DNA of 21,043 nucleotides. Origin: a virus. Location of the stretch: the IMG/VR virus record IMGVR_UViG_3300042914_003974, positions 1 through 21,043 of that record; one strand, 5' to 3'. Of the stretch, positions 1,680 to 18,706 are shown one piece after another. Each line of letters starts with the position of its first letter. The stretch's first letter is position 1. The translations under genes and the position numbers were made by a program. The notes beneath the pieces are model-generated. The model was not told the origin of the DNA and did no database searches. It saw only the letters and a program-made list of their open reading frames with translations.

Positions 1680-2147
1680 ATGAAAAAAGTTGTAAGATTA
1701 ACTGAAACTGAATTGACTAGCCTAATTAAAAAGGTTGTAGTTGAATCTAAAAAAACTCAAAATAAAAAAAGGATTAACGAAATGGAAAATTTCATAAATC
1801 CTGAGGCTATGGAAACTGCAGATGCCATCTATACTATAATTGGAACAACAATTGGTTTATTGGGTATTGCGGGTTATGATTATTTGAAATCAATGGCTCA
1901 AGAGTTAATGAAACAAGGTAAAGAGAAAAAAGCTAAGAAAATTTTAGACTTTGTTGAAGCGAATGAACCAAAATCAGGTGAAGAATCTGAAGGTCACTTC
2001 CACGAAGGAGAAATGGATGAAGAATTTGGTAGTAAGAAGCATGAGTATAAGAGAATGGATGGACATAAAATGGGTGACAAAGATGGTCACTACAAAGATT
2101 ATGAAGTTAAAGAATCTATAATCAGAAGAAAAACTAAAAGAAAATAA
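1680..2147 (+). CDS. Tagged small membrane protein with His/Asp/Glu-rich tail
   Basis: A 155-aa protein beginning MKKVVRLTETELTSLIKKVV. The first 22-34 residues form the leader type shared by other genes here, with possible hydrophobic-x-Glu cleavage sites at VVE22 and INE34. A hydrophobic segment (AIYTIIGTTIGLLGIAGYDY, about residues 49-68) could cross a membrane. The C-terminal half is very charged, with HFHEGEMDEEFG and HKMGDKDGHYKDYE, and might bind divalent metal. The chosen start follows TATTTATA by 14 bases; longer upstream starts lack the recurring MKK leader. A terminator follows at 2168. No named family is recognised. Confidence 0.85.
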   Translation: MKKVVRLTETELTSLIKKVVVESKKTQNKKRINEMENFINPEAMETADAIYTIIGTTIGLLGIAGYDYLKSMAQELMKQGKEKKAKKILDFVEANEPKSGEESEGHFHEGEMDEEFGSKKHEYKRMDGHKMGDKDGHYKDYEVKESIIRRKTKRK

Positions 2148-2167
2148 TTTTAACAAATATTTTTTAT

Positions 2168-2193
2168 AAAAACCCTCCGAGTGAGGGTTTTTT
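2168..2193 (+). terminator. Intrinsic terminator after the gene at 1680
   Basis: AAAAACCCTC (2168..2177), a 5-base loop CGAGT, and GAGGGTTTTT (2183..2192), followed by further T. The stem is closely related to that at 1137..1163, and both are followed at once by TATATTTG. Confidence 0.88.
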
Positions 2194-2197
2194 GTTT

Positions 2198-2220
2198 TAT
2201 ATTTGTAGAAATAATTAAAA
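2198..2220 (+). promoter_or_regulatory. TATATTTG promoter box plus shared 5' leader
   Basis: TATATTTG at 2198..2205 and the next 15 bases (TAGAAATAATTAAAA) are identical over 23 bases to the minus-strand region 10286..10264 in front of the CAP-protein gene. No TTTG occurs at the expected -33 distance. The ATG at 2233 follows. Confidence 0.6.
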
Positions 2221-2232
2221 CCCCACACAACT

Positions 2233-2397
2233 ATGAAAAACTTGAAACTTAAAATGACTGCATGTATGATGGCATTGGCGTTAGACACTATTTTGATTGT
2301 AAATGCTCCTAACCAATCAGTATTAACTATTGGAATCATTTTGGGAATCGTTCAAATGTTTTTGTGGGGACGATTGATGTCTGAAATTAAGGAATAA
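2233..2397 (+). CDS. Small two-helix membrane protein (54 aa)
   Basis: The frame starts MKNLKLKMTACMMALALDTI and ends GRLMSEIKE. Two hydrophobic stretches (about residues 9-24 and 31-46) separated by a short NAPNQS turn suggest a hairpin in the inner membrane with both ends in the cytoplasm. It is flanked by its own promoter-like box (2198) and a bidirectional terminator (2400), so it is a monocistronic unit. Function is unknown; a holin-like or superinfection role is possible only as speculation. Confidence 0.72.
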   Translation: MKNLKLKMTACMMALALDTILIVNAPNQSVLTIGIILGIVQMFLWGRLMSEIKE

Positions 2398-2399
2398 AA

Positions 2400-2427
2400 A
2401 AAATCCCCTCTAATTTGAGGGGATTTT
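2400..2427. terminator. Bidirectional terminator between convergent genes
   Basis: AAAATCCCCTC (2400..2410), loop TAATTT, GAGGGGATTTT (2417..2427). It serves the plus gene ending at 2397 and the minus gene ending at 2432. Confidence 0.9.
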
Positions 2428-2431
2428 CATT

Positions 2432-3259
2432 TTAGAATGCTTCTACTTCTTCCATCATTAACTGATAAGCTCTTGCAAGTCTTGTCATTCCGATTCCACC
2501 ACCAAAACGGGGGAAGAAATCATGAGATAGGAATTCTTCTAATTCTTTCTCAACTCTTTCTTTACCGAATAGTTCAAATAGTTTTTCAGAATATTTTCCA
2601 TTTTCAATTGTGTAGAAATTATTTCTCATCTCTTCAACATTTGAACTTCTTTCCGCAGAACCAATTGTTTCTTGTCCGTAAAGAATTACATCGACCTTAT
2701 TGAATATCTTATTTTCACTCTCTTTCATATTCCAAAATGGGTTTGTTCTATATGGGAAATTTTGTAATGATACTACACTGCCTTTTTCTTTCCACATTCT
2801 TGTTTCGTGTTCATCCTCTAAAATTGAGACTCCTCCGTATTCTTCACAAACATCATCATAATTTACCTCAACAGGTTTGTCAAAACCTAAATAATCCAAA
2901 AGTTCTGATTCAAGTTTTAACATTTCTTTCATTCCACCTTTTGATTCAAATTCAAACATTGGGAAGATTAATTCGTGACGACCTGGTATTGGTGTTTTTT
3001 CTTGTCTATAAGATGTTGAAATACAATACACACCATTCCATTCAGGATTTTTAAGAAGTTCATATTCTAACCACATTTGACCTGTTTGTGGTAGTGGCCA
3101 AACTTCTCCTTGATAATTGAATGTTGTAATTGAGTGAGGATTCTCACATGCTGCCAAGATTGATAATCTTGATTGTGTTGGAACTTCTTTAAATCCTTTT
3201 TCTTGAAAGAATGTTCTCATTTTTTGAACTAACTCGTTGTAAGTTTCTGTGTTTTTCAT
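2432..3259 (-). CDS. Stand-alone class II aminoacyl-tRNA synthetase-like catalytic domain (Asx/Lys type)
   Basis: A 275-aa protein with the core of class IIb synthetases (AspRS/AsnRS/LysRS group) and no N-terminal OB-fold anticodon-binding domain. Motif 2 is visible as STSYRQEKTPIPGRHELIFP with FEFE following (about residues 81-105), including the ATP-binding Arg of the RxE motif (R85, E87). Motif 3 is GGGIGMTRLARA (about 253-264) with Arg at 260. WPLPQTGQMWLEYELL (about 53-68) resembles the aspartate/asparagine-site region with its TGQ signature. Proteins of this build include the archaeal asparagine synthetase derived from AspRS and EpmA-type tRNA-synthetase paralogues, so it may activate an amino acid such as aspartate without charging a tRNA. 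The exact substrate cannot be read by eye. Upstream are a terminator-like hairpin and a micro-ORF that may control it. Confidence 0.85.
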   Translation of the reverse strand: MKNTETYNELVQKMRTFFQEKGFKEVPTQSRLSILAACENPHSITTFNYQGEVWPLPQTGQMWLEYELLKNPEWNGVYCISTSYRQEKTPIPGRHELIFPMFEFESKGGMKEMLKLESELLDYLGFDKPVEVNYDDVCEEYGGVSILEDEHETRMWKEKGSVVSLQNFPYRTNPFWNMKESENKIFNKVDVILYGQETIGSAERSSNVEEMRNNFYTIENGKYSEKLFELFGKERVEKELEEFLSHDFFPRFGGGIGMTRLARAYQLMMEEVEAF

Positions 3260-3303
3260 TTTTTTTTATTTTTAGTTTATTGTTAACGTATGGGCAAAAA
3301 AAA

Positions 3304-3321
3304 TCCTGACAATTGTCAGGA
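3304..3321 (-). terminator. Perfect 18-bp palindrome with T8 tract: candidate attenuator
   Basis: TCCTGACAATTGTCAGGA is perfectly self-complementary (7-bp stem, AATT loop). On the minus strand it is followed immediately by eight T (3303..3296), giving a classic intrinsic terminator. It lies only about 45 bases upstream of the synthetase-like gene's ATG, with no full gene upstream on that strand, which suggests attenuation. An alternative is an operator palindrome. Confidence 0.65.
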
Positions 3322-3363
3322 CATTCTTGGTAAATTATATATGTTTCGTAATTTATTTCTCAT
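3316..3363 (-). CDS. Possible 15-codon leader peptide of the synthetase-like gene
   Basis: The ATG at 3363..3361 encodes MRNKLRNIYNLPRMS and stops at a TGA lying inside the 5' arm of the hairpin 3304..3321. Three of 15 codons are Asn. The start lies 9 bases downstream of a near-consensus minus-strand promoter box. A ribosome at the stop would cover the hairpin arm. It is too short for coding statistics, and Asn is common in AT-rich frames, so this is a hypothesis. Confidence 0.3.
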   Translation of the reverse strand: MRNKLRNIYNLPRMS

Positions 3364-3372
3364 ACTTTTAAT

Positions 3373-3403
3373 TAAATATAGTGTAAATTAAAAAACAATC
3401 AAT
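3373..3403 (-). promoter_or_regulatory. Near-consensus host-type promoter (ATTG-N19-TATATTTA)
   Basis: On the minus strand ATTG (3403..3400), a 19-base spacer and TATATTTA (3380..3373) differ by one base in each box from TTTG-N19-TATATTTG. It would drive the micro-ORF, the hairpin and then the synthetase-like gene. Confidence 0.45.
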
Positions 3404-3415
3404 TATTTTTAGTAA

Positions 3416-3423
3416 TATTTATA
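3416..3423 (+). promoter_or_regulatory. Candidate phage promoter TATTTATA
   Basis: TATTTATA followed by TTAT and the ATG at 3428 (4-base gap). If it works as a -10 element the mRNA would start at or near the start codon. Confidence 0.6.
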
Positions 3424-3427
3424 TTAT

Positions 3428-5410
3428 ATGAAAAAATTACTTTCAGAAGTTAACAGATTTAAAAGTCTAATCGGAGTAAACCTAAATGAGGATGTTAAAG
3501 CTGCCGAGGACTATGAGTTTACAATATCAAGTATATTAAAAAACGACAAAGTTTATACAAAACAGATTGAAGTATTGTTGTATGATATACTTGATAAGGG
3601 TTATGAGTCCCCAATTAATTTTGATTTACTTGAGAGAGGTGTTCGTAATGTTTTAATGAAGAAAGGTGATAAGAAAAAAAATATCACAAAGTATTTGCAA
3701 AATGTGTTAAAGGTATTAAAAAAGAGAAATAAACAAGATTTTGATGATGGGGAACCTGAACCTGAAGAATTTACTTTTGAACCACAAGAGCCGTCAATGA
3801 TTAAGAAAAAAGTATATAATAAAGAATTATATTACTTACAAGTTGAGTTACTTAAAATGCAAGAATGGATAAAGAAAACAGGAAAAACTGTTATTATTGT
3901 CTTTGAGGGTAGGGACTCGGCAGGTAAAGGGTCAACAATTAAAAAATTCACAGAAAATTTAAATCCAAGATATTATAACATTATTGCGTTAGGAATTCCA
4001 ACACCTGATGAACGAAAAGCATGGTGGGATAGATACCGTAACCAAATTCAAAAAGGTATGATTAATTTCTTTGATAGAAGTTGGTATAACAGAGGACTTG
4101 TTGAACCTGTTATGGGGTATGGGTCACCTGAAGAATATGAGGACTTTATGAATAATGTTGAAGATTTTGAGAAGGACTTAGTAAAGGATGGGGATTATTT
4201 GTTTAAACTATGGTTCTCAATTGATAAGGAGACTCAGGCAAAGAGATTTCAAATGAGACAACAATCACCTGTCAAATATTGGAAATATTCACCTAATGAC
4301 GAGAAAATGCAAGATATGTGGGACAGGTTCTCAGAGTTCAAACAAAAATTATTTGATAAAACATCTACGGTTAATCACCCTTGGGTAATATTGGACGCAA
4401 ATGATAAAAGAGTATCAGGTCTAAATGCGATTAGATATGTGTTACAAAATATTCCGTATGAAGGTAAGAACAATGAAATATTAGATAAAGATTTTCCTGA
4501 GGCTATGACGGTATTAAAACCTGAGATTGGTGAGTCTAAAAACATAAATGAAACCGAAGGAGCTGACCCAAAAAATCCTGACTCACATCCTGATTTGGAT
4601 GATTTTGGTCCTGACAGTTGGTGGAAATTTGAGGATTGGAAAACATGGTTTAACGCAAGTGTTAAAAAATATGGGTGGGATAGGGCAAAACAAAACTTTG
4701 CAAGATTTTGGATGGCAGTTGAGGAAGGTACTGGAGTTGGAACCACAAATGATTTAGATGTTAATTGGTTAAAACAAAACGGTCTTTGGAATGAAAAAAC
4801 TGGTAAGGTTTATACAAGAGACGAAATGTCTACCCAACTATCAAAATCAGGTGATAAATCATATCCTCCATTTTCTAATAATGAATTAACTGTTTACAAA
4901 TTTTTAAGGGGTAATGGGTTTACCAAAATGGGGACAGCTGCGATTATGGGGAATATATTCCAAGAAACTTCATTTAATGGTGATACAATAACTAAAAAGG
5001 CGGTTAATGACAAAGGAGCTCCATCTTTTGGATTAATTCAATGGAGAGGGCAAAGGTTTTATCCTAATGTAAAAAATGATGTTAAATTTGTTAGTAATAA
5101 AACTCCAAATATTACTACTAATTGTAAGGATAAAGAAAACCCAAGTCGACTGAAACAATTAATGTGTCGTTATCCAAATTCATTTAACTCTATTAACACC
5201 CAACTTAATTTTCTGATGTCCGAATTATCAAAATATGAAACATTACTTGGAGAGTTGAAAAATAAAAAACTTAGTAAAGATGGTGACGGTTCAGTTTCAG
5301 GTGGAAAGGCGTTAGAAATAAATAAAAAATTTATAAGAGGTGAGGAAGGGAATAGATTTAAACATGCGCAATCTTATTTTAATAAAATTAAAAGTGAAAA
5401 GTATTTATAG
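3428..5410 (+). CDS. Tagged polyphosphate kinase 2 - phage tail-lysozyme fusion
   Basis: A 660-aa protein with four parts. (1) An N-terminal leader MKKLLSEVNRFKSLIGVNLN ending at E21, like that of the gene at 16913. (2) A Lys-rich helical region (30-120). (3) A PPK2 domain (about 125-345), which in known members moves phosphate from polyphosphate to nucleotides. It has Walker A GRDSAGKGST (161-170), Walker B FFDRSWYNR (214-222) and a lid with RQQSPVKYWKYSPND (277-291), so the catalytic set looks intact. (4) After an acidic linker (365-395), a Trp-rich segment (398-455) and a phage tail-lysozyme-like domain (about 485-655) with IMGNIFQETSFN (506-517, candidate catalytic Glu513) and SFGLIQWRGQR (533-543). 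That domain type cuts peptidoglycan during entry. Linker sites IGE369/S and INE375/T could be protease sites. The joining of a nucleotide kinase to an entry lysozyme is unusual. Confidence 0.93.
   Translation: MKKLLSEVNRFKSLIGVNLNEDVKAAEDYEFTISSILKNDKVYTKQIEVLLYDILDKGYESPINFDLLERGVRNVLMKKGDKKKNITKYLQNVLKVLKKRNKQDFDDGEPEPEEFTFEPQEPSMIKKKVYNKELYYLQVELLKMQEWIKKTGKTVIIVFEGRDSAGKGSTIKKFTENLNPRYYNIIALGIPTPDERKAWWDRYRNQIQKGMINFFDRSWYNRGLVEPVMGYGSPEEYEDFMNNVEDFEKDLVKDGDYLFKLWFSIDKETQAKRFQMRQQSPVKYWKYSPNDEKMQDMWDRFSEFKQKLFDKTSTVNHPWVILDANDKRVSGLNAIRYVLQNIPYEGKNNEILDKDFPEAMTVLKPEIGESKNINETEGADPKNPDSHPDLDDFGPDSWWKFEDWKTWFNASVKKYGWDRAKQNFARFWMAVEEGTGVGTTNDLDVNWLKQNGLWNEKTGKVYTRDEMSTQLSKSGDKSYPPFSNNELTVYKFLRGNGFTKMGTAAIMGNIFQETSFNGDTITKKAVNDKGAPSFGLIQWRGQRFYPNVKNDVKFVSNKTPNITTNCKDKENPSRLKQLMCRYPNSFNSINTQLNFLMSELSKYETLLGELKNKKLSKDGDGSVSGGKALEINKKFIRGEEGNRFKHAQSYFNKIKSEKYL
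5402..5409 (+). promoter_or_regulatory. Candidate phage promoter TATTTATA
   Basis: TATTTATA overlaps the last codons and stop of the preceding gene and is followed by GTAT and the ATG at 5414, the same 4-base spacing as at 3416. Confidence 0.55.
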
Positions 5411-5413
5411 TAT

Positions 5414-5740
5414 ATGAAAAAGAAGATTATCAATATAACTGAAAGTCAGTTGGAAAGAGTTGTTAAGAATTTAATGAATGAAAATGTTGCAAGATATGTA
5501 ATGTCTCCTGATGAATTTTTCAGAGAGAAAAATAAATCACAACAGTATCATTGTGCATTTGAGAACAAATGTTTTATAGTACATGATGGTAATCACCAAA
5601 TTGATGTTGATGATAAATTCATGGAAAAACACAAAATTCCAAATGGAATTGGTGGAACAATTTATCACGACGCTAAAAACATTTACTTCTGTCCTGATTT
5701 TGGTGACGACAGACCACAAAGAACTATTCAGATTTTTTAA
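5414..5740 (+). CDS. Tagged small hypothetical protein (108 aa)
   Basis: Begins MKKKIINITESQLERVVKNL, the clearest example of the ITESQL-type leader, with a hydrophobic-x-Glu site near MNE23/N. The mature part (about 24-108) is hydrophilic, with CAFENKCFIVHDG and IYFCPDFGDD; the three Cys and several His could bind a metal, but no motif is clear. It starts 4 bases after the stop of the PPK2-lysozyme gene and may share its transcript or use the TATTTATA box. Its 3' end overlaps the convergent gene 5737..6468 by 4 bases. No family is recognised. Confidence 0.8.
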   Translation: MKKKIINITESQLERVVKNLMNENVARYVMSPDEFFREKNKSQQYHCAFENKCFIVHDGNHQIDVDDKFMEKHKIPNGIGGTIYHDAKNIYFCPDFGDDRPQRTIQIF

Positions 5741-6468
5741 TATTGTAAATCAATACTAAATTCATCTTCTACTCTTTCTCCTTTCTCGTAATTCAAACCA
5801 AACTCAAGATAAATTTTTGTTGCGGCACAATCTATAAGAAAATTTCCTTGTGAACCTTCATTAATTTCCCAACCACTTTGTACATTTTCCAATACTCTAT
5901 ACAATTCATCCTCAATTGGTGCCGGAATATCAATTTGAGTATCATCAGAAGTATTACCAGTACTTTCAATATAACCACTATCACCACCACCTGAAAAATC
6001 AACTCTTATTTTGTTATGTCCGTTATCAAATAACTCTCTCATACTTTCAATAACATTAGTATCGGTAACTTCAAATTCGTGAGTGGAGTATTCGGAATCA
6101 ATTACTGTAACGGAACAACTTAAATCTAACTTTTTTGTTTCAAAATTTAAATCAACATAAAAAGAACTACTATGAAATGAGTCATATTTATCTAATTCGT
6201 CTTCAAACAAATCCAATATATCTTCTTGAATTAATTCATATAATGATTCTAAAAATTGTTTTAAGAGACCTGATTTTAATTCTTTAACATCACTTCTACC
6301 TAAATATGGGTCATAATAAAATTCAGGATGGCTATCGCCTTCATAGTAATATAATGTTTGAGATATTTCATCCTCACCATACATTTGAGCGATGACTGAT
6401 AATGACTCTAACGATTGTTTTGCAAAATCGGTTTGTAAAAATTTTTTTATTTTTTCAAGTTGTTCCAT
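5737..6468 (-). CDS. Hypothetical acidic protein, possibly DUF6878-like C-terminus
   Basis: A 243-aa acidic protein starting MEQLEKIKKFLQTDFAKQSL. The C-terminal half has RVDFSGGGDSGYIESTG, then YRVLENVQSGWEINEGSQG and IYLEFGLNYEKGE. The spaced GDSG..GGWE.N.G pattern recalls the uncharacterised DUF6878 family, but I assign this by memory only. It is the last gene of a four-gene minus-strand cluster (7445 to 5737), though a TATTTATT box three bases before its ATG may let it be transcribed alone. No signal peptide or membrane segment is seen. Confidence 0.8.
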   Translation of the reverse strand: MEQLEKIKKFLQTDFAKQSLESLSVIAQMYGEDEISQTLYYYEGDSHPEFYYDPYLGRSDVKELKSGLLKQFLESLYELIQEDILDLFEDELDKYDSFHSSSFYVDLNFETKKLDLSCSVTVIDSEYSTHEFEVTDTNVIESMRELFDNGHNKIRVDFSGGGDSGYIESTGNTSDDTQIDIPAPIEDELYRVLENVQSGWEINEGSQGNFLIDCAATKIYLEFGLNYEKGERVEDEFSIDLQY

Positions 6469-6471
6469 ATC

Positions 6472-6479
6472 AATAAATA
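6472..6479 (-). promoter_or_regulatory. Candidate phage promoter TATTTATT
   Basis: On the minus strand TATTTATT, then GAT, then the ATG at 6468 (3-base gap). It abuts the stop codon of the upstream gene. Confidence 0.5.
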
Positions 6480-6833: not shown

Positions 6834-6835
6834 AA

Positions 6836-7445: not shown

Positions 7446-7468
7446 TTTAATAAGTTAATTTTTTTTGG

Positions 7469-7476
7469 TATTTATT
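7469..7476 (+). promoter_or_regulatory. Candidate phage promoter TATTTATT
   Basis: TATTTATT, then GTAT, then the ATG at 7481 (4-base gap), after an eight-T run. It lies in the 35-base divergent gap. Confidence 0.55.
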
Positions 7477-8700: not shown

Positions 8701-8708
8701 TATTTATT
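8701..8708 (+). promoter_or_regulatory. Candidate phage promoter TATTTATT
   Basis: TATTTATT 15 bases before the ATG at 8724. A second similar octamer, TATTTTAT (8716..8723), directly touches the ATG. Confidence 0.45.
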
Positions 8709-8723: not shown

Positions 8724-9653
8724 ATGAAAAAATTATTTGAAATAGATAATAGTGAAAGACAACGAATTTTAGAGATGCATATTGATGCAACTAAAAGAAA
8801 CTACATCACGGAACAACAAAAAACTGAAGAAATTAAAAAATGGGACAGTGGGATTATCGCCGCATATTTTCCAAATGATAAGGGTCAAATAACAGATTTA
8901 CCAAAAGACCAATTGGATGTGTTAAATAAAAAAGTTGATGAAATGTCTATTTTTTTAAAGAACCCTGATTATAGAAATAAAAAAATAACCATGAAAATTG
9001 AAGTCTCCACATCGACTAGTGGTACTAGACAAAGAAATGAGGAGTTAGCCGATGAGAGATTAGAGTCCGCCAAAAAATACATTAATCAAATTTTAGGGCA
9101 AAAAGTTGACCAGAGTATTCTAAAAAATATGGTTGTTACTGAGGATAAAAAAATACAACAAGGTGAGGATGGTACATACCGATATTTTAGAATACAGTTA
9201 TTTGTTGAAATGAATAAACCAATCAAACCTAGTACTCCTCCTCGTGTTAAAAGTCCATTACAACCAATAACTGTTGAATTAACTGCTGCAGATTGGGAAC
9301 TTACTCCTGTTGAATACCGATACAGAGATAAACCAACTCCCGATACTCGAAATATTGTACTTCATTCAATTAAAGATAGCAGGACTAAACCGGCAACAAT
9401 TTATTATTTGCCAACTCCATCACCTTTAAATCCATTATTCAAATTGATTAACCCAAACACTGGTGAGGTTGTTAATTCACCAAGAGCGTTTGGCCCGAAT
9501 GAAAAAACAATAAAAGAATTAAGTCTTGAAGATTTTAAAGGGGCATTATCTAATCTACCATCATCCGCCCAAAATGTATTTATTCCAAGAGCCGAAGCGA
9601 TTTATAATAATCAAGTAACTCAGACAAAAACTCAAAAAACACCACAACAATAA
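8724..9653 (+). CDS. Tagged protein with OmpA-like domain
   Basis: A 309-aa protein. The leader MKKLFEIDNSERQRILEMHI runs to a hydrophobic-x-Glu site at ITE30/Q. Residues about 65-165 resemble the OmpA/MotB C-terminal fold: ITMKIEVSTSTSGTRQRNEE followed by LADERLESAKKYINQILG, the usual N..L...RA..V..YL pattern, then VVTEDKK. That fold binds peptidoglycan in bacterial homologues; here the conserved Asp/Arg pair is only partly recognisable, so the fold is more certain than the ligand. The C-terminal part (about 170-309) is Pro/Thr-rich. There is no signal peptide, consistent with a virion rather than a host envelope protein. It ends at a strong terminator. Confidence 0.75.
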   Translation: MKKLFEIDNSERQRILEMHIDATKRNYITEQQKTEEIKKWDSGIIAAYFPNDKGQITDLPKDQLDVLNKKVDEMSIFLKNPDYRNKKITMKIEVSTSTSGTRQRNEELADERLESAKKYINQILGQKVDQSILKNMVVTEDKKIQQGEDGTYRYFRIQLFVEMNKPIKPSTPPRVKSPLQPITVELTAADWELTPVEYRYRDKPTPDTRNIVLHSIKDSRTKPATIYYLPTPSPLNPLFKLINPNTGEVVNSPRAFGPNEKTIKELSLEDFKGALSNLPSSAQNVFIPRAEAIYNNQVTQTKTQKTPQQ

Positions 9654-9690: not shown

Positions 9691-10252
9691 ATTTATAAAG
9701 AACTAATACAGGGTCACTACCGTGAGGATTAAGTCCATCGCTAAAATGATATGTAATATCTAAGATTGAAACTGCGAAATATTTATATTCACGGTCTAAG
9801 ATGATTGCTCTGTGAGGAGGGGAGTTCATCCAACTTTTTACAATTGATTTAGTGATTTTATTATCCCAATCAGATTCGTTATTCCAGTTTGTTAAACACT
9901 CACTTTGAGCACACTCACCAACATAATATTTACCAGGTAAGAACTTTTCCATTCTTTGAGAATAACTCAATTCAACAAAGTCTTTAAAGTCCATACTTTC
10001 CTCATGCTCCAATTCTGATTCATAGTGGGACAAGTAAATTGCATGATACTTAGCCATTTCTTTCGCCTTTGGGCAAAATGACAATTGAGACAAACCATGT
10101 TTTGCTCTTTCAGAGTTTACTTCTTTTAAAACCAACTGCTCAATTTTAGTTGCCTCAACATAGGTAGTTTTAACTAAGGTTGGTTTTACATACTGAGAAA
10201 AAGATACTAAACTAATTAAAACAAAGGTGATTGTTAAGATTAAGTTTTTCAT
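9689..10252 (-). CDS. Secreted CAP (SCP/PR-1-like) domain protein
   Basis: A 187-aa protein starting MKNLILTITFVLISLVSFSQ, a typical flavobacterial signal peptide with cleavage near residue 20, so it should be exported to the periplasm or beyond. The CAP domain spans about 36-185: NSERAKHGLSQLSFCPKAKE (helix 1), a His-rich stretch with LEHEES (81-86), VGECAQ (the GEN-like motif, E113) and KSWMNSPPHRAIIL (139-152, with the W..SP.H signature). The four Cys may form disulfides. I chose the ATG at 10252 because it starts the signal peptide and follows a host-type promoter and a 5' leader. A secreted CAP protein in a phage is unusual; it could modify the envelope of the infected cell. Confidence 0.9.
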   Translation of the reverse strand: MKNLILTITFVLISLVSFSQYVKPTLVKTTYVEATKIEQLVLKEVNSERAKHGLSQLSFCPKAKEMAKYHAIYLSHYESELEHEESMDFKDFVELSYSQRMEKFLPGKYYVGECAQSECLTNWNNESDWDNKITKSIVKSWMNSPPHRAIILDREYKYFAVSILDITYHFSDGLNPHGSDPVLVLYK

Positions 10253-10263
10253 AGTGGTTGACT

Positions 10264-10309
10264 TTTTAATTATTTCTACAAATATATATAAAATATTCAT
10301 TCGCACAAA
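10264..10309 (-). promoter_or_regulatory. Bacteroidota promoter and 5' leader of the CAP gene
   Basis: On the minus strand TTTG (10309..10306), a 19-base spacer and TATATTTG (10286..10279) match the consensus exactly. The leader that follows is identical to that at 2206..2220, and the ATG comes 26 bases after the box. Confidence 0.75.
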
Positions 10310-10376
10310 ATATTTATGAAAAAGAATTTGATTTTTTTCAAATTCATAAACTTTAAACCCAAATAAATGGATAGTG

Positions 10377-10583
10377 ATGACTTGGAGACAAATATTCCGC
10401 AAAAACATAGCAACTTTCTGTCTAATGGCTGGAATGTTTTTCAACCCCTTAGGATTCGACATCATTTTCAAGATGATTTTAGATGCAACAAGTTCCTATT
10501 GGATTACCACAAGTATTTTCTATGGTATTGCACTATCATTCTTTGGATTGTATTTCTTATTTCGTGAAAAAAATGAAAATTGA
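10377..10583 (+). CDS. Small two-helix membrane protein (68 aa)
   Basis: The ATG at 10377 gives MTWRQIFRKNIATFCLMAGM; a GTG one codon earlier is possible. Two hydrophobic segments (about 10-35 and 45-62) are followed by a basic tail FREKNEN, a two-helix inner-membrane topology. The last 11 bases overlap the ATG of the DUF5872-like gene, suggesting coupling. A competing frame from 10367 encodes an implausible His/Trp-rich sequence. Function is unknown; it resembles the small membrane protein at 2233 in layout only. Confidence 0.6.
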   Translation: MTWRQIFRKNIATFCLMAGMFFNPLGFDIIFKMILDATSSYWITTSIFYGIALSFFGLYFLFREKNEN

Positions 10584-11175
10584 AAAGATATTAAAAAAAG
10601 TATTATTGGAACATTCTAATAATAATGTCATGGTTTCTGAAAATTTACAGTACCATTTAGATAATGAATTATCATTAATGGAAAATGTGTTTAGACCGCA
10701 TTCTCAAAAGTTTTTTGACTTAATTAATGAAGTTAGAGAATTATATATTTCAGGTGAAATGGAATTAACCGAAGAAGAGGTTGAGATTGTTGAGTCTGAT
10801 TTGGGAAAGAAAATTAAATTATCAAGTGGTAAAGAAGTTTACTTGGATATACCTATGTCTGAAGAATTTATAAATGAGGCTGAGTATAATGGTAAGAAAG
10901 TTGAGATTGGAAAACCAAGAAGAAATACGGGTGGCGGTAAAAAGTATGTTGTATATGTAAAAAACCCATCAACAGGAAGAGTTAAGAAAATTTCTTTTGG
11001 TGATGTTAAAGGTGGATTAACTGCAAAAGTGTCAAACCCTAAAGCTCGAAAAGCATTTGCATCAAGACACAACTGTAAAGATAAAAAAGACAGAATGAAA
11101 GCAGGTTATTGGGCGTGTCGTTTAAATAGATTTGGTCATTTGTGGGGAGGAAAAACATATCCAGGTTTTTGGTAA
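10573..11175 (+). CDS. Tagged DUF5872-like protein
   Basis: A 200-aa protein beginning MKIEKILKKVLLEHSNNN, a short leader with LLE13/H as a candidate cleavage site. An acidic helical middle (about 20-90) leads to a basic C-terminal domain (about 115-200) with KKYVVYVKNPSTGRVKKISF, KARKAFASRHNC, RMKAGYWACRLNRFGHLWGG and the end TYPGFW. The arrangement FGD..., arKaFasRHnC, KagYWaCRL is the pattern I recall for DUF5872, common in phage proteins. Conserved Cys and His could bind a metal. Function is unknown, though it is usually met near head-morphogenesis genes in my recollection. The ATG is 14 codons after the previous gene's end region and overlaps it by 11 bases. Confidence 0.85.
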   Translation: MKIEKILKKVLLEHSNNNVMVSENLQYHLDNELSLMENVFRPHSQKFFDLINEVRELYISGEMELTEEEVEIVESDLGKKIKLSSGKEVYLDIPMSEEFINEAEYNGKKVEIGKPRRNTGGGKKYVVYVKNPSTGRVKKISFGDVKGGLTAKVSNPKARKAFASRHNCKDKKDRMKAGYWACRLNRFGHLWGGKTYPGFW

Positions 11176-11176
11176 T

Positions 11177-11443: not shown

Positions 11444-12059
11444 TTCTTTCAACAATCTTAGTCAATATTACTTTTAATAAATTAGCGCTTAACGCAACTC
11501 CTCCTGACGATAGAAGACTTTTAACCAATTTATTTACAAGAAGTGAAGTATCGGCATCACTATTAGTTGATAAGATGATTAACATAGGAATAGTAGGTAT
11601 TAGAAATGCGTAAGATATAATATTACCAACTTGTCCAACTGTAATTCCTACCGAGCTAATAAAATCTGATAAAGTATTTTTAAGCTCTTTTGTTTTTTCT
11701 AATACATCACTAAAAACATCACTTAATCCTTTTTCTTTAATGTCCTCAATTACTTTTCTAATTTGTATTTCATTATTATAGAAAACAATACTGACCGCTC
11801 CAACAATTAAAGAATAAACTGACGCTTCATCTATTTCAGGATAATTTCCATTAATGTAATCTGATAAAGGTCCCATTAAACCACCAATCGATGCTCCCCA
11901 AGTTAATAAGAATTTTAAATCCATATTTAATTGTTTCGCAGTTGATTTAATTGCCATAATCGCAACTTCCTTTGCGGACATTAATTTATCTTTAATATCA
12001 TTTAATACCGATTCTGTCAGTATCATTTTGTTTGAAGATTCAGAAATTAAGATTTTCAT
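11424..12059 (-). CDS. Tagged multi-pass membrane protein (211 aa)
   Basis: Starts MKILISESSNKMILTESVLN, a variant of the shared leader with LTE16/S as a possible site. Hydrophobic segments fall at about residues 50-65, 80-95, 145-163 and 181-198, so three or four membrane helices are likely. There is an amphipathic helical stretch with KTKELKNTLSDF between them. No named domain is recognised; it could be a virion protein that forms a channel at entry, or a holin-like protein. A short AT-rich stretch at 12060..12075 separates it from the divergent gene at 12076. Confidence 0.8.
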   Translation of the reverse strand: MKILISESSNKMILTESVLNDIKDKLMSAKEVAIMAIKSTAKQLNMDLKFLLTWGASIGGLMGPLSDYINGNYPEIDEASVYSLIVGAVSIVFYNNEIQIRKVIEDIKEKGLSDVFSDVLEKTKELKNTLSDFISSVGITVGQVGNIISYAFLIPTIPMLIILSTNSDADTSLLVNKLVKSLLSSGGVALSANLLKVILTKIVERIKQTQS

Positions 12060-12075
12060 AATATTTAATAAATAT
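12060..12075. promoter_or_regulatory. Candidate bidirectional promoter in a 16-base divergent gap
   Basis: On the minus strand TATTTATT (12074..12067) lies 7 bases before the ATG at 12059. On the plus strand TATTTAAT (12062..12069) lies 6 bases before the ATG at 12076. Two divergent genes therefore share one AT-only 16-base spacer with overlapping candidate promoters, leaving no room for conventional 5' leaders. Confidence 0.5.
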
Positions 12076-12723: not shown

Positions 12724-12952
12724 GGAAGATTGGATTTTGTTCTCCAAAGTATCCACCAATAATATTAAAATCAAAATACTCCAAAGACTCTTCCTCACTC
12801 ATATCTTCCATTAATTTATTAATGATTTTTTCTTTTGAGTATAATATACGAGGACCATTACCAAATTCTTCGGTTATCCCAATAATACAATCATCAAATC
12901 CATCTAATAGAATCGCACCTTCTGCTAATTCATTAATTTCGTCTCTTGTCAT
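12716..12952 (-). CDS. Conserved small phage protein (78 aa)
   Basis: Starts MTRDEINELAEGAILLDGFD. The blocks LDGFDDCIIGITEEFGNGPR and ILYSKEKIINKLMEDMSEEE followed by EYFDFNIIGGYFG look conserved, and I recall similar proteins in diverse phages, uncharacterised. The ATG overlaps the stop of rmlC (ATGA, 12949..12952), so the two genes are translationally coupled. No catalytic motif is evident. Confidence 0.82.
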   Translation of the reverse strand: MTRDEINELAEGAILLDGFDDCIIGITEEFGNGPRILYSKEKIINKLMEDMSEEESLEYFDFNIIGGYFGEQNPIFLI

Positions 12953-13449
12953 ACCAAATCTGTAAAATGAATACCTTCGTTATCTTTATCACTCATTTTA
13001 AGTTTGAATGTAAACCCTGATGTTAGTTTTGTGATAGTCTCCCTAACCTCCTCAACCGAATCCCATTTAATAGATAATTCATGTTCGGGAGAATACATTT
13101 CATCAACCAAGTAATTTACAACTGTTCCACTTTGAAGAGTTAGGAACCCGTGAGCATATCCGTGAGGAACGTATAGGACATCACCTTCATCCATAGAGTA
13201 CTCAAAGACTTTTCCAAAATTTGGGTCTAATTTATCTACACAAACACAAAAATCAATTATTTTTCCTTGAATCACCATAACTTGTTTGGCTTGTGACTTT
13301 GGGTATTTCTGTAAATGTAATCCTCTGAAAACAAAAATATCATCGTTAATACTAATGTTAGATTGAACCCATTTGTCAGATAATTTAATAGGTGTAAAAG
13401 AACCTCTATGGTCTTTAAATATTGGTTGTTTTTTTAATTCAGGTGTCAT
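12949..13449 (-). CDS. rmlC: dTDP-4-dehydrorhamnose 3,5-epimerase family (RmlC-like)
   Basis: A 166-aa cupin-fold sugar epimerase. RmlC epimerises dTDP-4-dehydro-6-deoxyglucose at C3 and C5 on the way to dTDP-rhamnose. Seen here: FKDHRGSF (11-18), FRGLHLQKYPKSQAKQVMVI (41-60) with the active-site His45, then PHGYAHGFLTLQSGTVVNYL (95-114) and the PEHELSIKWD block (131-140) containing a candidate Asp140. The protein is slightly shorter than the usual 180-185 aa, and ends GIHFTDLV. No other rhamnose gene lies in the window, so it may act on a host pool or belong to an epimerase subfamily with another substrate. An upstream in-frame region lacks ATG, so the start is 13449. Confidence 0.9.
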   Translation of the reverse strand: MTPELKKQPIFKDHRGSFTPIKLSDKWVQSNISINDDIFVFRGLHLQKYPKSQAKQVMVIQGKIIDFCVCVDKLDPNFGKVFEYSMDEGDVLYVPHGYAHGFLTLQSGTVVNYLVDEMYSPEHELSIKWDSVEEVRETITKLTSGFTFKLKMSDKDNEGIHFTDLV

Positions 13450-13500
13450 AAGACTAAATTTAATAATAATACTTTTTTTTGTCAAATAGTATTGACAACA

Positions 13501-13508
13501 TATTTATA
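13501..13508 (+). promoter_or_regulatory. Candidate phage promoter TATTTATA
   Basis: TATTTATA lies 13 bases before the ATG at 13522. It follows TTGACA (13492..13497) and, further upstream, a 13-base element TTTTTTTTGTCAA (13473..13485) also found at 1638..1650. Confidence 0.45.
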
Positions 13509-13521
13509 AGAAAATTGAATT

Positions 13522-13980
13522 ATGAAGGCTTATTTTTTGAATATTTCGGAAGACGAAAAAAAATCAATCACTGAAAAACATAGAGAATTATATAACGGTT
13601 ATCAAGTACAACAACCAAAAGGTAATATGACACCTTTACAAGTTGAGAATTTAGCTCAAGATGGTGACGGGGTTACTGTTAATTCTAGAGGTGATGTTAC
13701 CGGATATAAAAACACAGGAATTAATCAACCTATGAAAACTGTTTGTGAAGAGTGTGGTAATATGTATGAAGGTGAAATGTGTGAATGTGGAACAGGAAAT
13801 ATGTATGAGGATAATGTATGTGAATGTGGTTCAGGTATGAACGAAGGGGAATGTAATGAGTGTGGAACTAAAATGTATACTGAAGAACAAATTGAAGAAA
13901 GTATTAAATTAAAAAGTAAGAAAGATTCAGTTCTCAAAGAGATTAATGAGTCTTTGAATTGGTTTAAAAAACTAATCTGA
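13522..13980 (+). CDS. Cys-rich protein with zinc-knuckle-like repeats
   Basis: A 152-aa protein starting MKAYFLNISEDEKKSITEKH, a leader of the same type as that at 8724 (ISxxEKxxI..KH). The middle (about 74-116) holds four degenerate repeats with CxxCG or CxCG knuckles: CEECGNMYEGEMCECG, then MYEDNVCECG, MNEGECNECG and KMYTEE. Nine Cys suggest one or two structural zinc sites. The C-terminus has a helical stretch SIKLKSKKDSVLKEINESLN. Its TGA overlaps the ATG of the next gene (TGATG). No named family is recognised. Confidence 0.78.
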   Translation: MKAYFLNISEDEKKSITEKHRELYNGYQVQQPKGNMTPLQVENLAQDGDGVTVNSRGDVTGYKNTGINQPMKTVCEECGNMYEGEMCECGTGNMYEDNVCECGSGMNEGECNECGTKMYTEEQIEESIKLKSKKDSVLKEINESLNWFKKLI

Positions 13981-14309: not shown

Positions 14310-14335
14310 ATCTACGAGTTTTTACATTTATTAAG

Positions 14336-14343
14336 TATTTATA
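14336..14343 (+). promoter_or_regulatory. Candidate phage promoter TATTTATA
   Basis: TATTTATA, then TTATA, then the ATG at 14349 (5-base gap). It heads the large plus-strand cluster. Confidence 0.55.
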
Positions 14344-14348
14344 TTATA

Positions 14349-14600
14349 ATGAAATTTGATATTGATTTATATATAAACTTAATGCGTTCATTGTCATTTA
14401 CTGATAGTAAAAACGAGGAATTATCTGAACAAGGTGAATCTGCCCCATCAGGAGGTGGAGGTTCGACAGAAGGGTATCCAAAAGTTCCAAAGTGGGAAGA
14501 GTTTTACCAAACAAAAAGAGGTAAAGCAAATATGCTCGGTAAAGCAGGTGAGAAATGGACAACAGGGCTAACTAGAGGGGTGGCAAACCAAGTTTGGTAA
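14349..14600 (+). CDS. Small tagged protein with RGKANMLGKAGEKW motif (83 aa)
   Basis: Starts MKFDIDLYINLMRSLSFTDS; the leader seems to end at LSE27/Q. A Gly/Ser linker (SAPSGGGGSTEG) leads to a conserved-looking end VPKWEEFYQTKRGKANMLGK and AGEKWTTGLTRGVANQVW. I think this C-terminal pattern recurs in small phage virion-associated proteins, from memory. The next gene starts one base after its stop (TAATATG), so they are coupled. Function is unknown. Confidence 0.78.
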   Translation: MKFDIDLYINLMRSLSFTDSKNEELSEQGESAPSGGGGSTEGYPKVPKWEEFYQTKRGKANMLGKAGEKWTTGLTRGVANQVW

Positions 14601-14601
14601 T

Positions 14602-16887
14602 ATGAAAAAACAACAACTAATAGAAAGGATTTTGTTGAATATGAATTACAATTCGAGTAAGACATATTCTGAAAATTTAGAAGTCATTCAGGAACAAACA
14701 CAAACAACGATAGGTGCTGCAAAACCAAAAAATGTTAGAAAATCTTACGAAGATTACTTAAAGGAAGTACCACAGTTACCACCATCAAGACTATCAATCA
14801 AAGTCAAAAACGACATATATTTCTGTGCGTACCCAAGAAATTATGATTTTTATAAAATTACAACAAATTTAACAAGAAACGATGGGGATATTTTCTTTAA
14901 TAGAAATGATAATAATATAGATGTATACTGTAATAAATTACAAAACCTATATCCTGACGATTTCAGTTCTATTCAAAATGTAAAAAACAAACCAAAAAAT
15001 CAAAAAACAAATATACCATTAGATGACTCATTTAGGAATAAATGGTATGATGAAAATGGTAATGTTTTAGTATATACTGACAATTCAAAATCAAAAACTG
15101 AATACCAAAAACCTACAATTAAAAATGCTAATTTAAGAGTTTGTGGAGCACCTAGAGGGTATACTTGTGAAGGATGGAAAGAGTTTAATGAAATTAAAAA
15201 ACAATTACAAGACAGTTATCAAAAATGTAAAACATCAAATAAGGGAAAATTTATTTTACCAGCATCGGTAAAAAATATGTTACCTAAACAAAAAATTGAA
15301 CTTTATGAGTCAGGTATGTCCGATGAAAATTCAATACAAAATATTTGTCAGAGTAAATTTACAAGTTTGAACGATTTTGTTAAATCTATTTTTTATAACT
15401 ACGAATTTCCTCATGGTATCGAGGTTCAAAATATGACCGCATATAAAGAACTGTATGGAGAAATCAACAGTAAGTTTAATAGTGAAATATCTTCACTGCA
15501 ACAACAAGATAACTATGATGCAGAAGATAATCCATATGCGTTACCCACAGATAGATTAGACCCAAATAGAGATACTGAAAGATTAAAACAGAGTGAGATT
15601 GGTAAATTACAAAGTAGTAAAAACATTTTATTACAAGGGTTAGATTTAACATTTGGATTTGATGATTCTGAGTCACCTGAAAGTTTAACTTGGTATCAAA
15701 ATTTTTACAAGGAAAACCAATTGGTAGTTGACTTAGCCGGTTTCCTTGCAACTGAGGTGGCGTTGGCGGCAATAACTAGAGGTATGAGTTTAGAGTCAAC
15801 TGCGATGAGAGCTCCAGCAGTAATAGGTAGACAAGCATTTTTAGAGTCATCCAAATTTGTTGCGTCTCAGTCTTTGAAACAAAAATTAAAAAGTGTTGCA
15901 ACACCATTGGCATCATCATTAATTTGGTTTGGAGGAGTGGTTAACGGAGTTTTATTACCAAAAAGTGAGAACGAAGCAAAACAAATGAATTGGATTTTAG
16001 CATTTTTTCCATTATTTAAAATGTTTCCCGGTATTGATTGGTTGTATAAAGGAATTGGAAAATCATTACAGGAATCTGTTAGAAAATCAATATTAAAAAA
16101 GGCTCAAACTTATTTATCAACAGGTGCGGGACAAACAGAATGGGTTACTTTTTTCAGTAAATTAAATAAACCTGAAAAACTTGTAATGATTAATTTATTA
16201 AAGGCAAATGTTACAAATCCTGATGCAGTTAGTAATATTATAAAACAAGTATCATTAGGGGCAACAAAAAACATTGAATCTAAACAAGGGTTTAGTAAGA
16301 TTTTATCAATAATTCAAAACTCGGCAAAGGGTAATTTAGCTGCAAGTGAAAATCAAATGTTATTAGACACTCAAAAGGTGTTTAATGCTGTCGGAGGAGC
16401 CGCTGGAAAACAAAGAGTCACAAATCTTGTTAAAACATATGGATTAGACAGTTTATTTATATTATCAGGAAGTATTGGAATGAAGGTTAAAAACCATATT
16501 AATGAAATGTTAAAAAATCAATTAGATAACCAAAAAATTGAAAAATTAAATAATTGGTTAATAACTAATTCTAAAATTAATAAAACAACGCCTGTAGAAG
16601 TTGCTAAATCAGATGTTAATGAAGAAATTAAAACTTTAGACGCATCACTATCAAATATTCAAAATGGGACAGCAACTGCTGAGGATATTAAAAATGTTAA
16701 TGACGCATTTGTAAGTATGGGTATTAGAAAAAGTGATATTAAAGACCCCAAAATAGAACTATCACAAGAAGAGGCCAATAAATTAACAGACATGTATTAT
16801 GAAAACTCAGATGAGTTATTTGAAGGTAATGACCCTTCATTTGTATTTACGATTGTAACTGATAAAACAACAATTAAAAAACCATAA
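14602..16887 (+). CDS. Large tagged hypothetical protein (761 aa), likely virion-associated
   Basis: Starts MKKQQLIERILLNMNYNSSK; the leader contains IQE31/Q as a candidate site. Residues 35-340 are hydrophilic with many Asn/Lys and scattered Cys (KVKNDIYFCAYPRNYDFYKI; RVCGAPRGYTCEGWKEF). A hydrophobic section spans about 374-480: LVVDLAGFLATEVALAAI, then SSLIWFGGVVNGVLLP and WILAFFPLFKMFPGIDWLYK, probably membrane-inserting. A helical C-terminal part follows, with LDSLFILSGSIGMKVKNHIN near 614-633. No domain is recognised. Size, leader, and membrane-active middle fit a virion protein delivered at infection, but this is inference. Confidence 0.75.
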   Translation: MKKQQLIERILLNMNYNSSKTYSENLEVIQEQTQTTIGAAKPKNVRKSYEDYLKEVPQLPPSRLSIKVKNDIYFCAYPRNYDFYKITTNLTRNDGDIFFNRNDNNIDVYCNKLQNLYPDDFSSIQNVKNKPKNQKTNIPLDDSFRNKWYDENGNVLVYTDNSKSKTEYQKPTIKNANLRVCGAPRGYTCEGWKEFNEIKKQLQDSYQKCKTSNKGKFILPASVKNMLPKQKIELYESGMSDENSIQNICQSKFTSLNDFVKSIFYNYEFPHGIEVQNMTAYKELYGEINSKFNSEISSLQQQDNYDAEDNPYALPTDRLDPNRDTERLKQSEIGKLQSSKNILLQGLDLTFGFDDSESPESLTWYQNFYKENQLVVDLAGFLATEVALAAITRGMSLESTAMRAPAVIGRQAFLESSKFVASQSLKQKLKSVATPLASSLIWFGGVVNGVLLPKSENEAKQMNWILAFFPLFKMFPGIDWLYKGIGKSLQESVRKSILKKAQTYLSTGAGQTEWVTFFSKLNKPEKLVMINLLKANVTNPDAVSNIIKQVSLGATKNIESKQGFSKILSIIQNSAKGNLAASENQMLLDTQKVFNAVGGAAGKQRVTNLVKTYGLDSLFILSGSIGMKVKNHINEMLKNQLDNQKIEKLNNWLITNSKINKTTPVEVAKSDVNEEIKTLDASLSNIQNGTATAEDIKNVNDAFVSMGIRKSDIKDPKIELSQEEANKLTDMYYENSDELFEGNDPSFVFTIVTDKTTIKKP

Positions 16888-16895
16888 TATTTATA
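16888..16895 (+). promoter_or_regulatory. Candidate phage promoter TATTTATA
   Basis: TATTTATA begins right after the preceding stop codon (TAA at 16885..16887), 17 bases before the ATG at 16913. Confidence 0.45.
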
Positions 16896-16912
16896 TTAAA
16901 TCTCAAATTTAT

Positions 16913-18706
16913 ATGAAAATCACATTAAAAGAAGAACTGAATAGAATAAAAAAAATAATGGGGGTTAAAATACTTTCCGAACAAGATTTACCAAGAGCGG
17001 TTACATCATTTAGTGACGATGCGATAATTAATGCAATTAAAGAATATATACCAAAAATCGCGTCACTTGCGGGAGGGACTTCTCAGGGTTCTTATAATAA
17101 GAATTTGGCTTTAAATCTTCTTAGAGATATTTCAGCGTCATCTGGTAAAAATATAAATAGTTTTGGAAAACCAAATGTTAATTTTTCAAAATATTCTACC
17201 GATAAATTTGGCAATAAAAAAATACAATCGGACACTGCGTTTAACCCTAAAGCTATTGACACAGGTAAATTACTTTCAGGGTTTGAAAATCTAAACGCGG
17301 TACAAAAGGCTGACATTGTAAAAAAATACACAACAGAAATGATTCAACTTGGAATTATTTCTCCAGAAATTGCGGTAGACGCGATGATTGCTCATAATGA
17401 TACCGACTATAAGTGGGTTCGTTGGTGGATGTCTGATGGACAATATCAAGTAATGATAAAAGGTGATGTGGCTAAGGTGGACAACGCTTATTTAGATATG
17501 TCAATTAATGAATTTATGGCGGCTTTAAAGATTCCTCAGTCAATGAGATACACTATGGCGGAAAGAGTCAAATCGTATTTAATGAGAGATGGTATTCAAA
17601 TTAATCCTAAATACACTGCAAAAGAAAAAACTTCGTTACTGGGTAAAGAGACTCAAATAAATAACATGGTTCCTGGAGGATATACGGAGGAGCAAGTTGC
17701 GGAAGCGATTTCTCAACAAGTTATGGATAATTTTGTTACCCGTAATAACAACCCAACAACACTATACAATTATTTTGTAACATCTAACGACCTAAGATTT
17801 ACTGAATTAAAAAAATGGTTAGTTATCCCCAAAAACAAAGAATTATTTATTAAAGCCATGTCACAAAATCCTACTGAAAAACAATGGGATGAGGCGTTTA
17901 ATACTTTAAAACGAGAAGGGTTATTATCTCAAGAACAAATGACTTGGGTTGAAAGGCATCGTAAATTTTGTTACAAAACAGTTAAAGGGTTTAAAGGTGA
18001 TAAAGACTTTATTATTGGTAGTGAAGTTGGAAAGGGTGATGAGTATACCTTAGAAAAAATGACAAGGTTATGTAGAGTATTTCAAACATATATTTTCACA
18101 AAAATATTTGTTGGAGTTATTGGATTAGTGGGTTCGGTAGGACTAGGTTGGATTTTTAGAAATTTCTTTTTTGGTAATGAGGCCATTTCTTTGTATGGGT
18201 GGTTTACAGGATGTGTTAGTAAAGAAGATAGTGATAAATTTTTAAATGGGGATGATGAAATATTTAACGAGGTAAACTGGACAAAAATAGGGATAAGTAG
18301 AGAGGATTTCAAAAATGAATATTTACCAATGATAAAAGCACAGTCTTTATATAACTTTAAAAAATTTAAAGCGTGTGATGAAGATATGTTATACATGTTA
18401 ATACCTCAAAAAACTGCTGATGGTTCATTAGACTTAAATTTGAGTAAACGAGTTTTTTTAACAACTGATTTATCTTCTAATTTTGTATTAAAGAATGTTG
18501 ACAGTGAACAAGGATTGATGGATAACTTAAAAGGTGACTATGATACTTTTATTAATAGAGCTAAAGGTGCAATTGAAGATGCTAAGAAACAGGTCCAAAA
18601 TTTGGGAGGAAATTCAAATGATGCAACAGGACCCATCAAAGACACGACAAACTCATTATCCCCCATCGTCAGCGCAACAGACTCAACAAATATTGTTGAC
18701 AATTGA
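16913..18706 (+). CDS. Large tagged hypothetical protein with membrane segment (597 aa)
   Basis: Starts MKITLKEELNRIKKIMGVKI and continues LSE23/Q. The leader aligns with that of the PPK2-lysozyme protein (E..NR(F/I)K..(I/M)GV...L.E). Residues 24-390 are soluble, with a Met-rich stretch ITEMIQLG and WVRWWMSDGQYQVMIKGD. A hydrophobic segment at about 393-419 (IFTKIFVGVIGLVGSVGLGW) could be one or two membrane helices. The C-terminus is acidic and Ser/Thr/Asn-rich. No named domain is recognised. It stands between two other large genes with small gaps, probably one operon. Confidence 0.75.
   Translation: MKITLKEELNRIKKIMGVKILSEQDLPRAVTSFSDDAIINAIKEYIPKIASLAGGTSQGSYNKNLALNLLRDISASSGKNINSFGKPNVNFSKYSTDKFGNKKIQSDTAFNPKAIDTGKLLSGFENLNAVQKADIVKKYTTEMIQLGIISPEIAVDAMIAHNDTDYKWVRWWMSDGQYQVMIKGDVAKVDNAYLDMSINEFMAALKIPQSMRYTMAERVKSYLMRDGIQINPKYTAKEKTSLLGKETQINNMVPGGYTEEQVAEAISQQVMDNFVTRNNNPTTLYNYFVTSNDLRFTELKKWLVIPKNKELFIKAMSQNPTEKQWDEAFNTLKREGLLSQEQMTWVERHRKFCYKTVKGFKGDKDFIIGSEVGKGDEYTLEKMTRLCRVFQTYIFTKIFVGVIGLVGSVGLGWIFRNFFFGNEAISLYGWFTGCVSKEDSDKFLNGDDEIFNEVNWTKIGISREDFKNEYLPMIKAQSLYNFKKFKACDEDMLYMLIPQKTADGSLDLNLSKRVFLTTDLSSNFVLKNVDSEQGLMDNLKGDYDTFINRAKGAIEDAKKQVQNLGGNSNDATGPIKDTTNSLSPIVSATDSTNIVDN

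Follow-up and report, generated by a model that had tools for sequence, protein, structure and literature searches.

Interchangeable N-terminal leaders on unrelated phage proteins, probably acting like the capsid-targeting sequences of T4

The closest described counterpart of the elements presented here is the capsid-targeting sequence (CTS) of bacteriophage T4, a short N-terminal leader carried by unrelated accessory proteins (IPI, IPII, IPIII and the Alt propeptide) and processed by gp21 (PMC9026906, PMC9958956). As described in PMC9026906, gp21 cuts after L/I-x-E and the T4 CTSs are 10–19 residues long; according to PMC12373910, Ip1-3 share only this leader and are injected inhibitors of type IV restriction. 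Gp21-like processing is also reported for phiKZ and SPN3US, in which many head proteins are trimmed of a propeptide behind a short motif with a final E (PMC9026906, PMC10052503), although the phiKZ motif is S/A-x-E; the excerpts of these two papers do not describe shared, interchangeable leaders on unrelated bodies for either phage. Polyvalent proteins of phages and conjugative elements are multidomain fusions with variable effector parts, and up to 35% of them are predicted to be packaged in the capsid (PMC5512222). Here we describe a set of short, mostly amphipathic N-terminal leaders encoded in the 21,043-base virus record IMGVR_UViG_3300042914_003974 (the window, that is, the whole stretch analysed, with 26 called genes) and in related viral contigs. 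A literature search of open-licence PMC papers found no paper describing them.

All ten leader open reading frames (ORFs) proposed in a preliminary description of this DNA are present, at starts 1680, 3428, 5414, 8724, 10573, 12059 (minus strand), 13522, 14349, 14602 and 16913. They have different bodies and, as was claimed for most of them, their leaders end near a hydrophobic-x-Glu site. Between the window and its relatives the middle residue of this site varies and L, I, M and V exchange, with E constant. Two leader subtypes had been distinguished; this proved too few, since at least eight types exist in the clade, and ITESQL, thought to mark one subtype, is simply the start of a leader.

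We consider it quite probable that the leaders are N-terminal propeptides working like the T4 CTS. A leader would bring its late-expressed cargo into the prohead core, a gp21-like S77 prohead protease would cut after hydrophobic-x-E at the leader/body junction, and the freed cargo would be ejected from the head into the host with the DNA. Cutting is proposed because the motif is conserved and shared with the capsid propeptide, and ejection by extension from T4. The likeness to the T4 system lies in the short leader on unrelated proteins, the L/I-x-E cut motif, the S77 protease (in relatives) and the same motif in the capsid propeptide. The clade departs from T4 in having at least eight leader types and, on each large contig, tagged genes by the dozen; its cargo can be fused or replaced at a slot, and sites also occur within proteins. 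It also differs from the large, multidomain polyvalent proteins in that its constant part is a short, predicted removable leader. The leaders show no similarity to the T4 leader (MKTYQEFIAE) and no T4 protein matches any of eight leader profiles, so that we propose likeness of function and not descent from the T4 system. The T4-like reading of the preliminary description is thus supported by the protease and the capsid motif, though not by resemblance to the T4 leader itself.

The recurrence of the leaders was assessed in 13 sources (the window, contigs G001-G009, G011 and G012, and Flavobacterium phage vB_FspM_immuto, NC_055915, host Flavobacterium sp. LMO8, hereafter immuto) comprising 1,638 genes called by a simple script, with orthology and body families defined by BLASTP. 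Eight leader-only profile hidden Markov models were built with one sequence per body family, and a match was accepted at E<=0.1 if it started within residue 8. They match 172 proteins belonging to 101 unrelated body families: 8/26 genes in the window, 37/259 in G001, 27/311 in G003, 46/327 in G004, 21/94 in G008 and 7/188 in immuto. Reversed proteins give 0-2 matches per profile at the same E-value. Matches elsewhere in proteins number 0 to 6 per profile at E<=0.1 and include some true internal leaders, in tandem in G004_140 and as second leaders inside G004_142, G004_146, G004_167 and G003_302. Three contigs unused for profile training, G015, G022 and G028, yielded 9, 27 and 26 leader genes, and Microcystis phage Mel-JY01 none (0/193 genes).

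That the likeness arises by chance or by ordinary homology of N-terminal domains has, in our estimate, next to no probability. Lys, Glu and hydrophobic residues are common in an AT-rich phage, yet the reversed, internal, shuffled and other-phage controls contradict such an origin. Among G001 N-terminal 35-mers on unrelated bodies, 32 pairs score at least 40, versus 4 for N-terminal/internal, 5 for internal/internal and 2 for shuffled pairs; the same comparison in immuto gives 13 versus 1, 2 and 1. T4 gives 7 versus 2, of which one pair is the known IPII/IPIII leader and the others are mostly homing endonucleases with homologous N-terminal domains. Such domains dominate the T4 scores, and the pairwise test alone is therefore unspecific. 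Chance or composition as the source of the leaders was rejected on the 35-mer and reversed-protein controls together.

The profile search of relatives suggested in the preliminary description places leaders on about 100 unrelated bodies, and no leader is present on any of 44 homologs of the genes for DNA replication, nucleotide and DNA metabolism in immuto. Homologs of core structural genes are equally without leaders (0/64); what the leaders mark is thus accessory cargo and not virion proteins at large. A search of 84,980 bacterial and archaeal species genomes with the type A leader gave only 5 loci. Three of these (L262, L263 and L265) lie on contigs of one metagenome-assembled genome, named Alphaproteobacteria UBA3650; these contigs contain homologs of these phages' genes and are probably mis-binned phage; the other two are not at the start of a leader ORF. 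The possibility that the leaders are host genes was rejected on this search.

Leaders and cargo evolve as separate modules: a single leader type occurs on many unrelated bodies, bodies of one family swap types, and genomic slots keep their leader while the body is replaced. The window slots occupied by genes 14602 and 16913 are also present in G001, G002, G003 and G008, and in the three genes upstream of them (13522, 13980 and 14349) the window shares 73-83% identity with G001 or G002. Gene 14602 matches G002_14 in the leader region only (residues 1-48, 58%), with no significant body match, and G001_78 over about the first 70 residues (32%), beyond which the match is not significant. Bodies in the 16913 slot are at best weakly similar; the downstream gene 18724 is itself only 28-34% identical, so the whole end of the window appears to change fast. 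Another exchange is seen in G008_25 and G008_28 (L154:17347-18060 and L154:19189-19872): from the ATG onwards their DNA is identical over 98 nt, reaching slightly beyond LME↓Q (the arrow marks the predicted cut), and their bodies are unrelated.

Cargo may also be fused. In G003 PPK2 and lysozyme are separate genes, each of them tagged, and the lysozyme gene has its own leader, beginning MNLVKILRNIILE↓QKSDPKNP. In the window and G001 the two are fused, and the linker reads INE↓TEGADPKNP or LNE↓TEGADPKNP where the G003 lysozyme gene has its site; in window gene 3428 this internal site, at the PPK2/lysozyme junction, is INE↓TEG (residues 373-375; 4544..4552, plus strand) and in G001_95 it is LNE↓TEG. 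Locus L108 (G004:C1 240193-241716, minus strand) encodes in one frame what we read from the sequence as metallopeptidase-like and superoxide-dismutase-like segments and a third unit, with hydrophobic-x-E in the linkers. Internal sites of this kind, seen here together with a split homolog, would allow fused cargo proteins to be separated by cleavage within the prohead.

Polymorphic toxins likewise have variable effector parts and multi-domain fusions. A bolder proposal, to which we give slightly less than an even chance, is that the capsid of these phages is a modular effector-delivery machine. Leader families would serve as a common address code for dozens of cargos per genome with fast turnover (kinase, lysozyme, peptidoglycan-binding protein, 2H phosphoesterase with weak Acb1 similarity, fused precursors). 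As in polymorphic toxins, these cargos would be exchanged at fixed positions while the leader in front of them stays constant, and fused ones would be cut in the prohead before injection. If the leaders mark packaged cargo, the proteins probably carried into hosts by a large group of uncultured phages, about 100 body families among them, could be listed from sequence: the question of which proteins are injected would become a motif search, and exact mature N-termini would be predictable. As natural address tags, the leaders could also serve to direct proteins of choice into phage heads, and they suggest that, beyond the T4 group, proteolysis in the head has driven the expansion of a store of takeover or counter-defence proteins.

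The motif at the end of the leaders is also that of the capsid propeptide. The G001 major capsid protein, used as a query, has at least 599 relatives in viral contigs, of which 80 were kept for further counts. The clade propeptide ends in LINE before A or S at 78/78 loci read by eye (L039 and L055, with partial N-termini, were left out), in alignment with FLTE↓A of T4 and IVSE↓A of immuto; Mel-JY01 has LISE↓A. The leaders end in hydrophobic-x-E in the same way, with L and I dominant and M and V also occurring, and the residue after E is mostly Q, E, S, N, D, A or G. The motif is found at the leader end in 101 of 111 body-family entries, against 30 expected from shuffled leaders and 18 from internal windows, a count that is partly circular because the leaders were already known when the windows were set and the motif is itself part of the profiles.

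Cleaner tests come from the cargo-slot comparison above, from the junctions of two body families and from a tree of leader changes. The RYMFF family (anchor RYMFFSN) has its anchor at 79 of 80 loci, giving 46 distinct N-termini (one of them, L301, cut at a contig end) with leaders of up to 22 residues. Hydrophobic-x-E lies 0-7 residues before the anchor in 44 of the 46 and further upstream of the body in the other two. Fifteen have type A and 31 type B leaders; on the body tree the type changes at least 8 times, and well-supported branches make at least 3 of these changes unavoidable. In the RYVMS family, to which window gene 5414 belongs, all 16 distinct N-termini have the motif (49/52 loci; three without the anchor were dropped). 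Across ortholog groups, hydrophobic-x-E occupies one column in all members in 10/13 leader groups versus 24/107 others (P 1.7e-4). The three leader groups that fail are those of 3428 and 10573, owing to misplaced starts (the latter group also holds a leaderless immuto member), and a type C group.

These junctions bear on the idea that the leaders are docking modules that enter the virion by binding scaffold, portal or inner membrane and are never removed. We regard this as unlikely. The leaders are indeed short, common and swappable, AlphaFold predicts, at low confidence, a helix in one family member's leader, and cleavage itself is a prediction. However, the body keeps an adjoining hydrophobic-x-E through exchanges of leaders that differ in length and type, and the capsid propeptide ends in the same motif.

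A candidate enzyme is encoded by the relatives of the window. The closest long relative, G001 (208,634 bases; its homolog of gene 8724 is 63% identical, compared with 70% for that of the 17,995-base G002), has a gene at contig position 52578-53297 for a Peptidase_S77 prohead protease (E 9.4e-27), and this protein matches 5jbl, a structure of gp21 from T4 (E 3.5e-16). The gp21-like protease anticipated in the preliminary description is therefore found in the relatives and not in the window itself. An S77 protease is present in all 12 of the largest of the 80 capsid-selected contigs and in 11/14 contigs of more than 100 kb selected by leader alone. The three without it also lack a Gp23 match and a T4-type portal match, two of them contain a short segment resembling a portion of the capsid protein, and 89/159, 63/141 and 96/181 of their genes match the clade. 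Since they lack head genes yet share clade genes, we read them as pieces without the head module.

Leader genes also share an upstream element, the box TATTTAT, searched for within 30 nt upstream of genes with an upstream gap of at least 25 nt. It precedes 65/71 leader genes versus 138/457 others in G001, G003, G004 and G008, 5/5 versus 2/8 in the window and 28/29 versus 49/231 in the held-out contigs, but only 2/4 versus 16/79 in immuto. It is most frequent 11 to 13 nt and 20 to 24 nt ahead of the ATG; an example, upstream of gene 3428, is at 3416..3422 (plus strand). Homologs of immuto virion genes have it in 21/52 cases and those of DNA-metabolism genes in 2/24 (P 0.006). We take the box as a putative late-gene signal. 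The T4 late box, TATAAATA, is rare at leader genes and differs from TATTTAT. If TATTTAT were a late promoter with T4 spacing, late mRNAs would be nearly leaderless.

The tight placement of this box raises the alternative that the leader has nothing to do with packaging and serves expression or stability, as a late start region, translation enhancer or degron. Type B leaders, moreover, differ less in codons than expected. In G001, by contrast, types A and C differ in codons as codon usage predicts (0.51 vs 0.51 and 0.49 vs 0.47), which means that conservation acts on the protein sequence. Untagged virion genes, too, are preceded by the box, and such an element would not call for hydrophobic-x-E to be conserved where leader meets body or where two domains are fused; we judge this explanation very unlikely.

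A number of observations weigh against a T4-like packaging role and temper our confidence in it. The window has no gp21-like protease gene within its 21 kb. T4 itself has no profile match among 188 called genes (of an incomplete record), and 27 to 46 tagged genes each in G001, G003 and G004 is far above the T4 number. Genes without a leader may have the box as well, and of the window's ten leader genes two, 10573 and 14602, have none within 40 nt. Conserved hydrophobic-x-E also occurs in non-leader ortholog groups at the frequency given above, type D leaders have the motif in only 14/20 body families, the leader of gene 13522 is weak, and the type C site would leave a leader of only about 7 residues. 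Leaderless paralogues (G001_189, 190 and 196) adjoin the tagged G001_195, and one tagged-looking immuto protein, missed by the profiles, resembles the nucleotide enzyme NT5C.

As to cargo, gene 3428 encodes PPK2 and a phage lysozyme, in agreement with the kinase-lysozyme reported previously; the OmpA-like protein reported with it (gene 8724) has only a weak OmpA match. Gene 10573 matches phrog_7595 and the other leader bodies of the window are unmatched. Scanned leader proteins elsewhere have few Pfam matches (PG_binding_1, CarboxypepD_reg/Ig-like, DUF6576, a sub-threshold DnaJ and other weak single matches), and most of the about 100 body families have none where scanned. G001_153 has a sub-threshold Acb1/2H phosphoesterase Pfam match, and at L010:13277-13819 (relatives L403, L405 and L406) a type B leader stands on a 2H phosphoesterase-like protein with two HTT motifs and weak similarity to the anti-CBASS Acb1. 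The Acb1-like protein scores 20.4 bits in Pfam (cut-off 27), has two HTT motifs and gave no match in PDB. AlphaFold models were too poor to use (mean predicted local distance difference test scores of 51.5 for a leader family and 38.9 for the Acb1-like protein). An injected counter-defence store would be the natural expectation, and only the weak Acb1 match points there. In immuto (L117:23366-23803) a type H leader is followed by a glycine-rich, GxGxxGxV-like stretch resembling a protein-kinase loop, with no Pfam match.

Some cargo with lysozyme, peptidoglycan-binding or membrane-like segments, together with the amphipathic and often basic character of the leaders, might suggest that they send proteins to the host membrane or envelope and not to the capsid. 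We hold this to be extremely improbable: by inspection, the leaders do not show the hydrophobic core followed by a signal peptidase site that marks a Sec signal peptide, many cargos look soluble, and the motif fits the prohead protease.

The ten leaders of the window, all on the plus strand except that of 12059, are as follows. Two type A leaders were found. That of gene 1680 (1680..1781; box at 1658-1664) contains two sites, VVVE↓S at residue 22 and INE↓M at residue 34, both kept in G001_98 and G003_29; in relatives VVE↓S is replaced by VKE↓S or ISE↓N and INE↓M by IQE↓M. That of gene 5414 (5414..5482; box at 5402-5408) has MNE↓N (residue 23), with VNE↓N and LNE↓D in relatives. The type E leader of the PPK2-lysozyme gene (3428..3490) ends at LNE↓D (residue 21; INE↓D in G001_95, LNE↓S in G003_31), and that of the second variable slot, gene 16913 (16913..16981; box at 16888-16894), at LSE↓Q (residue 23; ITE↓A and LKE↓A in relatives). 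Gene 8724 has a type D leader (8724..8813; box at 8701-8707) with ITE↓Q (residue 30), LNE↓Q in G001_88. The replaced-body slot, gene 14602, has a type F leader (14602..14694) with IQE↓Q (residue 31), which is LLE↓Q, IKE↓Q or LNE↓Q in relatives.

Gene 10573 is nested in a longer frame starting at 10483, and its relatives begin at the equivalent of 10573; its type B leader (10573..10611) ends at LLE↓H (residue 13; IKE↓E and LKE↓A in relatives). The type C leader of gene 12059 (12012..12059, minus strand; box at 12068-12074, minus strand) has LTE↓S (residue 16) and possibly also ISE↓S (residue 7), with ITE↓S and LLE↓N in relatives. The small gene 14349 has a type I leader (14349..14429; box at 14336-14342), outside the eight profiles, with LSE↓Q (residue 27), also LSE↓Q in G001_79; G003_53 and G008_52 keep GE↓Q (LGE↓Q, MGE↓Q). 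Gene 13522, listed earlier as a possible member, has a type D-like leader (13522..13575; box at 13501-13507) with possible sites ISE↓D and ITE↓K; ISE and ITE are conserved, but it is the weakest of the ten.

Annotated isolates with a distant gp23-like protein include immuto, Mel-JY01 and Rhodothermus phage RM378, around which PMC7198788 describes 'Far-T4' viruses of Bacteroidetes; we infer that the leader-bearing phages belong to this Far-T4 group and have Bacteroidota hosts. Searches of the phage collection with a 23-residue leader consensus (tblastn) and with the whole 14602 protein gave no match and no relative, respectively, and a single-protein scan of viral contigs with 16913 gave no match. 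Among the other genes of the window, 2435-3259 (minus strand) encodes a class II tRNA-synthetase-like protein (PF00152) also present in G001, and three leaderless genes, all on the minus strand, encode an FKBP-type isomerase (1171-1593), a CAP-domain protein (9692-10471) and a dTDP-sugar epimerase (12952-13485).

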